Origin: Sanderia malayensis
Lineage: Eukaryota; Cnidaria; Scyphozoa; Semaeostomeae; Pelagiidae
Assembly (NCBI GenBank): GCA_013076295.1
Contig: RQOL01000616.1
Span: 5,918,392-5,982,391, forward strand
Direction: 5' to 3'
Length of the DNA stretch: 64,000 nucleotides
Of this stretch, positions 3,760 through 8,800 are shown piece after piece. Position 1 is the first letter of the stretch. Each line of letters begins with the position of its first letter. The position numbers and the translations under genes were made by a program. Under the pieces are notes generated by a model that had not been told where the DNA came from, made no database searches, and saw nothing but the letters and a program-made list of their open reading frames with translations.

Positions 3760-4586
3760 TTTAACACCAGACCACTTTGTCGTTAATTTCCAACGTCCTT
3801 CGTGAATATGATGTCGCGGCTGTTTGAAAACATAGTTGAAAACGAAACTCAGATAAGGAGGACTCATTGAAAAAAGACAATGGGGATAACAAGGGGATTT
3901 TCCCTCGAATCACAGGCAAACCAAACAAAATCCAATCCAGAAAAGTGTGAGAAAAAGGGCATATAACCTGATCTAATGAAAAAACAGGCAAACTAAAATT
4001 AATTTCTTAATATAAAAACCTTAAGATATAAATATTGGCCTTCTATGTGATGACTTCTATTATCAAGAAGCAGAACACAAGTTCATATGGCAACCCTTTA
4101 ACATATCACATCCTGGAATTCTGAGAATTTATTTTTGATCACAACAGCAGCAGGGCAAAGGGTAACCACCTTTTTTTATCTTTTTATTTCTTTTCTCATT
4201 GAATGAGGGAGACAGAATTATAATTCTGCGGGAAATACCCTCCCACTTCCAAACCTCAATTCGATTCGGCTTGCAAAGTTTTGTTTTATTATTGTTAGCT
4301 GCTACATTTTGTCCAACTTCAACAATAAATCTTGTCCTTTTCCAGTGATCACAGACTCCTTTGATTTATATTAGGAAAATATTACTGGGTTGGCATATAT
4401 CACTCTCGAAAACCTCTATATTAATTGCTATTACTAATAATTCTCATTATTTACAGACTTCTAAAATAGTATAATTTCTGGCCTACTTTTATCTCCTGAC
4501 AAATCTGTCTGAGTTGACGACAACTTGAATTTGCCCCCAGCCAGTCGAGCCGCGCCGCGAGCCTTCTTTCCACTCTCAACTGCAAA
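3760..4586. promoter_or_regulatory. Head-to-head intergenic region between RRM-repeat gene and glutaredoxin
   Basis: About 830 bases separate two divergently oriented start codons, so both promoters should lie here. I see AT-rich sequence with no supported exon and no clear TATA or initiator signal. The short reading frames in this stretch are not similar to anything I recognise. Confidence 0.4.
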
Positions 4587-5088
4587 ATGGCGTCAAACCA
4601 TTGGATTAACTTTGTAAAAAAGTTAGTAACAACTAACAATGTCGTGGTGTTCTCTAAATCATTTTGACCTTTCGCTTCGAGAACGAAAGACATTTTTCGA
4701 TCGCATGGAGTCAAATCACTCTTCGTTCAAGAGCTTGATCAGCATGAAGACGGCCCAAACATCCAGGTAAACTTGCAGCTCAACTTCACGGCCTAGGCGA
4801 TGCATGCTTAGGCCCAATTAACACCGACTTTAATGGGCTTGTTTATAAGCAAGGTTTTTGCCCAGATAAGTTTCTTTGCCAAGGCACAGGTAATAATATG
4901 ATATAATGCATAATAATTTAATGTTGTCGTTTTTACAGGGTGCTTTAAAATCGCTGACAGGAAAAGCAACTGTTCCACATGTATTCATCGATGGCAAATT
5001 CATTGGTGGTGGGGATGAGACTGCCCTCCTCGATAAGTCTGGAAAATTGCAAGACATTTTAAGTGCTTATACCTCAAATGACCAATAA
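4587..5088 (+). CDS. Glutaredoxin with in-frame TGA at the catalytic cysteine (candidate selenoprotein)
   Basis: Two exons, 4587-4766 and 4939-5088, joined in phase 0 (CAG|gtaaac, ttttacag|GGT), give 109 residues, close to vertebrate glutaredoxin-1 size. Exon 1 starts MASNHWINFVKKL in a good Kozak context (A at -3, G at +4), then VVVFSKSF followed by TGA at 4665-4667 (codon 27). The same frame continues PFASRTKDIF and VQELDQHEDGPNIQ. Exon 2 carries the glutathione-binding TVPHVFIDGKFIGGGDET and stops at TAA. TGA sits exactly where the N-terminal Cys of the CPYC redox motif belongs, and the second Cys is Ala, so the site would be U-P-F-A, monothiol-like. Glutaredoxins reduce protein-glutathione mixed disulfides. 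No convincing SECIS element was found by eye downstream. Alternatives are nonsense mutation, a pseudogene or sequence error, but conservation on both sides of the TGA argues for function. AATAAA occurs at 5322. Confidence 0.75.
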
Positions 5089-5894
5089 ATGGGTTTTGTT
5101 AAAACAGACTGAAATCATCAATTTAACCCTTTATCTAAAAAAGAAATCGAATAACTTTTGTTTTGGCTTTTACTTTTTGCGAACGAAAATACATGGCAAA
5201 TGCTTGCATTTTTGCAAATAAGTGCGTGTGGTAAAAGGACATATATCTACATACAATGTATCAAAATTCAGAAGTATTTGTTATACCAATGTATATATTA
5301 TCTACTACATGCTGATGAAGGAATAAACGCAACCTTGCCTTAGGTAAGATGTGAATTCCTGATTGTTTTGACCAATATTTAATATTGGTAGCCATTTGTA
5401 ATGGAAGAATGAACAGTAATAAAATCAAGAAAAATATGAAGTTTTGCCTCTTGTTACCTTCTGCCCATATCAATATCGTCCTCCAGGATGTACAAAACAA
5501 ATAAATTAACAAAATCGATCATAATAATCATTAAAGGAACATATAATACTGATAACTTAAGGACTTTAAAAATTATAAAAATGAGAAATACTAGAAAATT
5601 TACACAAAAAGTAAAAAAATATGTAATTTCTCATTATGATTAAATACTTTGACTACTGTTACCATTGGATTTTAATGCAAACAGTTGGTTTAAGCCAACT
5701 GATAATGTTAATTTGAGAAAAGCTAAAGCTGTTTTAATGTTTATATTAATATCTTGCTGCAACCCACATTCAGTCGAAGACTAATAAATTTAATAAATTT
5801 AATAAAATACTGGAATGCTGAATTGTTCATAATATCATCTAATTGAATTTATAACCATAACAAAAATGATCAAATCATAATTTATAGCAATTTA
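5089..5894. other. 3' flank of glutaredoxin, region searched for SECIS
   Basis: Putative 3' UTR and intergenic sequence. Poly(A)-like AATAAA lies at 5322-5327. ATGA tetramers occur near 5315, 5409, 5436, 5581 and 5637, but I could not fold any of them into the SECIS quartet plus 9-14 bp helix and AA apical loop. A perfect-looking hairpin at 5581-5633 (atgagaaatac paired with gtaatttctcat) uses normal pairs and is not SECIS-like. No coding exon seen. Confidence 0.35.
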
Positions 5895-8800
5895 TCAAGC
5901 CCGCATGGCACTACCAAAGCAAACCAACGAAAATGGGCCTAATCCCTCCCACCTTGCATGCGGCTGATAAATAAAAACCTGCCTTTCCTTTCATAGTTGG
6001 TAATAATTGATTACACGTTCATCGTAGTAAAGTTATTCATTGATTTTATAATCAAATCATACCTTCTTTAAGCACAACAAATCATCAAATGCCAAAATGA
6101 TGCTTTAGGGGCCGTTCAATAATTACGTCACGCTAAATTTGGGTTTTTAGAACCACCCATCCCCCCTCGTCACGCTCCGTCACGGTTTCATGTGAGATCC
6201 CCTTGCGTGACGCCACTCTAGCCAGAGACAACCCCCCTCTTAAAAAAATGCCAGTACTTATGCAACACATGAAAAATTAGAGTAACGCAAGTTAATAATA
6301 TAGCAAATTAACAAAATGTAAATATCAAGTCAATCGCTTCTTCGGTTTAGATAAAAGTTGATCAATCACTTGTCCAGATTGGATCCATATCATTAAGGGC
6401 GGGGGTTCCACTTTTGGGAACAACTTTTGGAATATCTGACTCGTCGTCAAAATCAATTGAGTGCCATTCAGGCTCTTGAAAGGCCATCGCACACAACAAT
6501 TCATTTTGGCTTTTTCACTGCCGAAAACTGCACGACATTCAAATGTTCAAAGCAAAACGAATCAAGTATTTTCGACATCCAAATTACTGTAATTGGAAAC
6601 TTATGTTTTTGAAACATTTGAATTCCAAACTCGAATGTTCTGAAACATTTGAAATCTAAATCCGAATGTTTTGAACCATCTTCAATAAAGCACTCTTTAC
6701 ATGCCATAAAAACGGAAAACAACGTCTTTATCGACAAATCCAAATAAAACTTTATTTCAAATTTTTTTTCTACCGTGACGCCACGGACTTAAAATAAGTA
6801 CTACCCACCCCCTTGATTTACCGTCACGCTGTGTCACGAAAAACTCGAAGAACCACCCACCCCCCTAGCGTGACGTAATTATTGAACGGCCCCTTAAAAT
6901 TAAAGCACAAGACTCAAGAAGATGTTTTCTTATTTGCCAGTGAACAAACCCAAAAGCACGTATGGTATGTACGTATATACTCCTGCCATTGTGTAATAGA
7001 TTAGTACACCAATGCATGCATACTTAAAGCATTTCATGGATTGCACTTACGATGCTGGTCACTGGTGTCTGGAATAAAAATAAATAAAAATCATATATTT
7101 CAAGCCTTTTTCTTGTACACAATGTTTAAGACTTCAATAAACAAAGACCCATTGCAACATGACCCAATTCCTTCCTCGTACAATTGCCCTACGATGGTCT
7201 TATGATAGTTGATACATGGTGAAAATAGACTGCTACACAACAAAGAATTCTTCTAAGATGATTAATACTGGACTAAAAAAACTTGAATAGACTTCTTATT
7301 GGGCAATTGAATGAAAAACTTACCTTGTACTCCTGGCAAACATGACATGCATACTTTCCTCTTCCTTGCGACTGGATGATACCAAAATATCCATTGTTGC
7401 TGATGGAAAATAAAGAAAATTAATTATCAAGTGTAAAGCTAACTCTCAATATATCGCTGAATTTATGCTAAAAACGGTTGATTTATCCAGGCTGTGAATC
7501 TGCACACAGAAAAATCCCAATAGCATGATTCAAGACAACTCAAATCCATGTACCGTATTTCCTCTAATAAGCGCCTGGACGCTTATTAAATATTTGACAA
7601 AATTGGGTGGGTGCTTTTTAAAGGGGGCGCTTATTTCACACTTTTTGATTTTAGGGTGGGCGCTTATTGGAAGGGGTGGTTAAAAGAGGGTGGGCGCTGA
7701 TTAGAGGAAATACGGTATTTGGTGCCTTGGTGGTTCGAGCTATAGAAGTGGTATACAATCCGATATTGACAAACTCACCTTGTTACACCGCAATACGATA
7801 CTGTGTCTAAATCAATGACACGACGAGAAAGTGCCGTCCTCTGTGAGTCACATAAAGTTAAGCCATCTTTTGTTACCTCAAGGAACCCAATCATCATTGC
7901 TCCACCAGATAGTTGCTTTGTTGAAGAAAAAGAAATAACAACAATAACAAAAATAAACAATAACAACACAGGCTGTTTGGAGGAAAGGGGGGGGGTGAGG
8001 AATATGTGCACAATTTGCGAAAGTCGTCCAAAGTGTCCCGAGACGTTTGCTCACTATTGTAGCTACTACATGGCAGGCACTGTATAGATTTGAGTAAAGT
8101 AAAACCATTACAAAATGAAGCTGAGATCTGTGTGATGTTTCTCAAGACAATGTCTTGAAAAAAGGCTTCTGCTTTGATGGCAATTTGGCAGGTAAGAAAT
8201 GCGAGTCGCCATTCCTACCTCAACTGATTCTTGTACAGTTTCAATGCCAGTGCCTAACTCAACTTGCACACATCCAAAATATTTCACCAAATATTCATTT
8301 GCACCAGGCTGAAGAGTTGGCATCTTCTGATCTTGATTTGTCTGGTAAGAATCGTCCTAAAACGAACAAACAAATGATTATAGAAACTCAAACACATTGG
8401 TATCTCTGACCTTATATCATCTGCACGAGTTTACACAACAAAATGCGTGCAATATACAGTACAGTACAGTATACAGTTGCATAAGGTTTGCATTATTCGC
8501 AAAGTGGACAGAAAAATGCCACTTGTGCTGACCTTCTTTTTCGAATCTCTTTTCTGAAGCTTTTGAAATAGCCCCTGCACGCTGCTTTTCAAAGCACTAC
8601 CCTGAAACAAATAGAACCAAAGATCATTGGTAATGGTGCAATGATAAAAGTACGAGTTCTCATTGATTACGTATCTTTGGTCGTCGTATATGTTCTGAAT
8701 TTCCAAGTGTTCAGTACATCCACCTATGCATGACATCCAATACAACAAGGCTAGACGACGTCATACAATAAGACTCCAATTGGAATCATTGGAACCATTG

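Follow-up and report, generated by a model that had tools for sequence, protein, structure and literature searches.

A putative selenocysteine-containing glutaredoxin gene in the scyphozoan Sanderia malayensis

Known selenocysteine glutaredoxins and the window gene

In a limited number of bacteria, glutaredoxins carry selenocysteine (Sec) at the catalytic position within a U/CxxC/S motif (PMC13188914), and a Sec-containing glutaredoxin has also been reported in several SAR and haptophyte algae, those groups being the only ones among the algae surveyed; Fragilariopsis cylindrus has a closely related duplicated pair, one member of which bears Cys (PMC7539508). In animals, TGR/TXNRD3 is a metazoan selenoprotein with a glutaredoxin domain, which is found in the genome studied here too (L007, L023/L024), where Sec lies at the far C-terminus (GCUG) while the glutaredoxin domain keeps its Cys (CPFC in L007). 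A survey of six invertebrates gives 21 selenoprotein families in its Table 1, with no glutaredoxin among them, and its main text uses neither "glutaredoxin" nor "Grx" (PMC3473315). Passages of a vertebrate survey treat glutaredoxin as a domain of TR1/TGR (PMC3316567), and a review table includes Grx among the known selenoproteins, probably in its prokaryotic column (PMC7435645). No stand-alone animal Sec-glutaredoxin appeared among the open-access papers listed, as judged from titles, the starts of abstracts and selected passages. This agrees with an earlier reading of the DNA from its letters alone (the sequence-only reading), which knew of no described stand-alone animal example; Sec-glutaredoxins as such do, however, occur in bacteria and algae (PMC13188914, PMC7539508).

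The gene considered here lies in the window, namely the whole stretch of 64,000 nucleotides of Sanderia malayensis DNA that was analysed, and its features are collected in Table 1. Like the bacterial proteins it has its proposed Sec at the catalytic position, and like the algal ones it would be a eukaryotic Sec glutaredoxin, with two close copies as in F. cylindrus; it differs from the UxxC form tabulated for bacteria (PMC13188914) in its U-P-F-A motif, in being free of Cys and in having a SECIS candidate in the 3' UTR. In our view the gene is functional and encodes a selenoprotein glutaredoxin in which UGA codon 27 is read as Sec, with a probability of roughly 0.88. The proposal of a Sec-containing glutaredoxin, already made by the sequence-only reading, is supported by the conservation between two copies of the gene, by a W at the site in the related protein P0002, by a tRNA-Sec and other selenoprotein genes in the genome, and by the candidate SECIS.

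Three other glutaredoxin loci were found in the genome: a CPFC dithiol form (L005), a Grx5-type form (L006) and the TGR domain (L007). The first resembles the window gene in its domain, its related glutathione motifs and its two exons, but it has the CPFC active site, is 37% identical over the matched stretch, is followed by no SECIS candidate over the next 1183 nt and, unlike the window protein, groups with a sea-star glutaredoxin (99/92). It was also considered as a second TGA example and rejected, as its TGA lies in an intron.

Table 1. Features of the putative selenoprotein glutaredoxin gene, in window coordinates
Feature	Position	Strand	Basis or remark
Coding exon 1, codons 1-60	4587..4766	+	Start context GCAAAATGG; ATG at 4587; sequence, Pfam Glutaredoxin
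In-frame TGA, codon 27, proposed Sec, FSKSF-U-PFA	4665..4667	+	At first active-site Cys position
Intron, GT (4767)...AG (4937-4938)	4767..4938	+	Sequence; splice sites identical in copy 2
Coding exon 2, codons 61-109 and TAA stop	4939..5088	+	TVP and GGGDET motifs (glutathione site)
Candidate SECIS, form 2 like	5300..5380	+	ATGA 5315-5318, AA 5331-5332, TGAT 5360-5363, apical hairpin
AATAAA, first poly(A) signal motif 3' of SECIS candidate	5418..5423	+	Sequence

Reading frame, active site and the two copies

Joined together, 4587-4766 and 4939-5088 give 109 codons followed by TAA, and the TGA at codon 27 is the sole interruption. If the TGA is entered as Cys, the product matches the Pfam Glutaredoxin profile PF00462 over its positions 1-60 of 60 (E 2.1e-15, 57.1 bits), and PDB glutaredoxins match the 109-residue product (best 3.3e-21) with the TGA aligned to the first active-site Cys. 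The reading, the Pfam match and the PDB alignment thereby confirm what the sequence-only reading had claimed, that the frame is broken by this TGA alone and exactly at the catalytic Cys; the splice sites that it had named were likewise borne out and are present in the second copy too, and the glutathione-binding region that it saw after the TGA can be recognised in the alignment as TVP and GGGDET. In fact the alignment contains all parts of a glutathione site, i.e. the Lys before the motif (in FSKSF), TVP and the GG-D residues of GGGDET, which we take to play their glutathione-site roles in the window protein. The catalytic position is thus occupied by a TGA codon, from which Sec at this position is inferred. 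The active site would then be U-P-F-A, a motif without the second Cys, so that the monothiol type proposed before is right; moreover, no Cys occurs anywhere in the protein.

Given these features, the following scheme can be suggested. At UGA codon 27, tRNA-Sec would insert Sec under the control of a 3' UTR SECIS hairpin (about 5315-5363), and the 109-residue protein is predicted to have a glutaredoxin fold with a glutathione site. As U-P-F-A comes with no cysteine, only the monothiol (here monoselenol) route would be available, in which the selenolate of the putative enzyme would form Se-SG with the glutathione of a glutathionylated target, and a second glutathione would reduce Se-SG.

The genome searched is a 184-Mb assembly of 918 contigs, and the window is part of contig C569. 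The assembly gave no COX1 match. Its intronless HSP70 (L070), with 7992 candidates scored and the best 120 considered, matches a EukProt protein at 94%, a JGI protein at 81% and ENA proteins near 79%; among named matches with full coverage Rhopilema esculentum (78%) comes first, and various animals follow. A TGR fused to a glutaredoxin domain likewise fits an animal. About 24 kb upstream of the gene, a second glutaredoxin copy (G000:C569:5899122-5899631) carries the identical TGA, which argues that the TGA is not a one-place error. The copies differ at five sites in 330 coding bases, all of them 3' of the TGA, namely P57L and four silent changes; one of five codon differences thus alters the protein while 72% would be expected to be non-silent (P = 0.024). 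With all five differences after the TGA and four of them silent, the stretch downstream of the TGA seems to be conserved as protein, though five changes are few. Accordingly, an in-frame TGA is accompanied by coding conservation beyond it, as seen from the copy comparison and from the Pfam match, which runs past the TGA. These observations bear on a decaying pseudogene, where a Cys codon TGT or TGC would have mutated to the stop TGA and full translation been lost. Though one point change suffices for such a mutation, the TGA is identical in both copies with four of the five changes silent, and start, frame and splice sites are intact in both, hence we consider decay of this kind improbable.

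The copies belong to a larger repeat, in which a block of about 23 kb (C569:5881514-5904555) is repeated head to tail at 5904558-5928931 with pieces 89-95% identical, the second unit covering the window from position 1 to about 10540. This might be a tandem duplication, or it might represent two haplotypes placed in series by the assembler; the near-exact adjacency of the units fits the haplotypes as well, in which case the glutaredoxin copies would be two alleles and not two genes. Within the second unit, about 6107-6893 of the window is an insertion missing from the other copy, with terminal inverted repeats of about 23 bp (GGGGCCGTTCAATAATTACGTCA) beside TTAA-like bases; it is probably a small DNA transposon, inserted after the duplication. 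Upstream of the duplicated block, C569:5870870-5873522 is a self-complementary stretch of 2.65 kb (88.8%).

Candidate SECIS and selenocysteine use in the genome

In bacteria the SECIS adjoins the UGA. For eukaryotes the textbook core rules were built into our scanner, the third version of which requires the core, holds the spacing of AA constant and admits an apical hairpin. Downstream of the window gene, a hairpin at 5315-5363, about 227 nt past the stop and 55 nt ahead of the AATAAA at 5418, has 12 bases between ATGA and AA, then the apical hairpin, then TGAT. It scores -12.1 with version 3, which we devised once the candidate was already known, and no other candidate lies within 2 kb after the stop. 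Within up to 2 kb downstream of other genes in the genome, the same version finds elements at three of four glutathione peroxidase (GPx) genes with TGA (scores -11.8, -11.0 and -8.0), none at the fourth and none at the Cys-GPx, and only a poor element at TGR (-4.4); it gives no SECIS candidate after two other glutaredoxins, in 1183 nt (L005) and 1449 nt respectively. When the 1 kb following the stop was shuffled, -12.1 was reached in 2/1500 and -8 in 12/1500, and in 234 kb of real sequence from ten sources, on both strands, 12 other sites reach -8, two of which reach -12.1. The earlier scanners do not favour this element: version 1 does not list it, while version 2 scores it at -5.3 among 65 sites, itself included, that reach -5 on both strands of the window.

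As for the structure, helix I contributes little stability (-0.3 kcal/mol), and a 3/1 internal loop interrupts helix II. The Rfam SECIS models give no match in 5250-5420 even at E 10, nor in 4400-7500 with permissive thresholds, and at gathering level there is none across the window. The block 5300-5380 is identical between the two copies, while 5089-5299 shows 16 substitutions and 4 indels in 211 positions; as 5431-6107 is also little changed (8 substitutions and 1 indel in 677), the identity at the candidate is only suggestive. Searched against the genome at the DNA level, 5250-5430 hit only the two glutaredoxin loci among the best candidates scored, so that the region does not look like a repeat. 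Taken together, the SECIS that the sequence-only reading had failed to see by eye in 5089-5900 seems to be present at 5315-5363 as a candidate: it has the core, lies in the 3' UTR and outscores most shuffles, against which stand the missing Rfam match and the weak helix I. The weakness of this outer helix is also what a decaying pseudogene could show, while the use of Sec by the genome, described below, speaks against decay.

The genome contains a tRNA-Sec at C479:1388826 (77.5 bits), to which ARAGORN assigns the anticodon tca. The search gave 53 matches, with one further match above the cut-off (L018, 47.6 bits), which sits in a run of weaker matches at C569:1257445-1270003 where ARAGORN reports tRNA-Ser in the examined part (L019). 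This run (L018-L020) is a long tandem array of tRNA-Ser(gct)-like sequences with a unit of about 160 bp, 19 copies of which lie in the 3.1 kb of L019. For GPx, seven exon matches were found at five loci, and at four of these the codon of the Sec site itself is TGA (NVASFUG twice, NLASQUG and NTASLUG), while the fifth has Cys; moreover, the TGR (thioredoxin-glutathione reductase) C-terminus reads DTAASGCUG-stop. With a tRNA-Sec, four TGA-GPx genes and the GCUG end of TGR, the genome has what is predicted of a host that decodes Sec.

Sec decoding in the host and the position of the codon also bear on the possibility that readthrough places a standard amino acid instead of Sec at the UGA, giving a protein in a non-redox role. 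Stop-codon readthrough exists in animals, and the SECIS here is a candidate only. Nevertheless, such readthrough would have to fall exactly on the catalytic Cys position of an otherwise Cys-free protein, in a genome with tRNA-Sec and other TGA-containing selenoprotein genes and with a SECIS-like hairpin in place, and we regard it as very unlikely.

A genome-wide search with RF00031 scored 134 of 3754 first-look candidates. Among those scored, two matches below the cut-off were obtained, one of which belongs to the GPx gene at C809:1908946 and is found by our scanner as well. The other, the best match listed (L008, C781:1588076-1588141, minus strand, 26.1 bits), has no evident selenoprotein in the frames upstream of it. 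What the scanner proposes for the C655 and C616 GPx genes is missing among these matches, which says little either way, as 134 of 3754 were scored. A genome search for SelW/SelT/SelH (PF10262) found nothing, perhaps because the exons are short.

Relatives of the window protein

A first protein search yielded 14 proteins out of 15 candidates; a second one, with alignment A1, had 218 of 757 candidates at E 0.001, and the best 120 of them brought in P0016. The protein P0001 (EukProt) equals the window protein minus 20 residues around the TGA and is apparently a gene model of the same gene that avoids the stop. It raises the alternative that the gene is real and the TGA-bearing stretch of 60 nt an intron, leaving an 89-residue protein without the active site; exactly these 20 residues are absent from P0001, and a GT...AG pair would permit the splicing. 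On the other hand, the stretch supplies, in frame, the first strand and the active-site loop of the glutaredoxin domain, the copies are identical over 4557-4755, the stretch is kept as coding in P0002, and P0001 is more simply explained by a predictor that steered around a stop. An intron at this place is therefore highly improbable in our estimation.

The Sec-glutaredoxin reading gains instead from two other proteins. P0002 (JGI, 107 aa), the nearest full-length relative, is 63% identical over 93% and has FSKSFWPFA, with W at the catalytic Cys position, which probably reflects a TGA translated by code 4, the codon being deduced from the protein. P0016 (EukProt, 108 aa) matches both flanks of the active site and is dissimilar across the active site itself. 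The W in this 63% identical relative and the garbled model P0016 speak against a pseudogene as well. P0002 and P0016 are unlike each other, yet could be from one species. In a tree of 41 glutaredoxins (38 from the collected proteins and three of the genome itself), where most inner branches (28 of 38) lack resolution and bootstrap values had not converged, the window protein groups with P0002 (C for W) and P0016 in a single clade (98/93). The Cys form P0109 (JP448141.1, EukProt; CPFA) falls outside this clade, and P0013 (NCBI) covers exon 2 only. Just five of the 125 collected proteins are free of Cys: P0001, P0002, P0016, P0015, which is the window's own exon 1, and P0114, which has 72 aa and lacks the active site. 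As the clade members have no Cys, Sec would be the only redox residue in the clade. As to the alternation between TGA and Cys codons at this site, proposed earlier as a check, P0002 has W (probably TGA) and more distant glutaredoxins have Cys; within the clade no true alternation was seen.

These relatives make it fairly likely that animals have a further selenoprotein family, so far unreported, whose members would be monoselenol glutaredoxins free of Cys, conserved in at least two and probably three species. In every full-length case found here a gene finder has skipped, garbled or misread the TGA, which would explain why the family escaped notice, and the case shows how TGA genes vanish from annotation. 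If true, a stand-alone Sec-glutaredoxin adds an animal selenoprotein family and may link selenium directly to the control of glutathionylation in animals; moreover, one Sec with no Cys would offer a clean natural test of what selenium contributes to the monothiol mechanism. Beyond these species, no relative was found in viral contigs with P0002 as query, and A1 matched 36 bacterial or bacterial-MAG loci in the contigs of other genomes, with best segments 27-50% identical. The automatic EukProt models P0016 and P0001, which garble or cut the TGA stretch, provide a route to other hidden selenoproteins.
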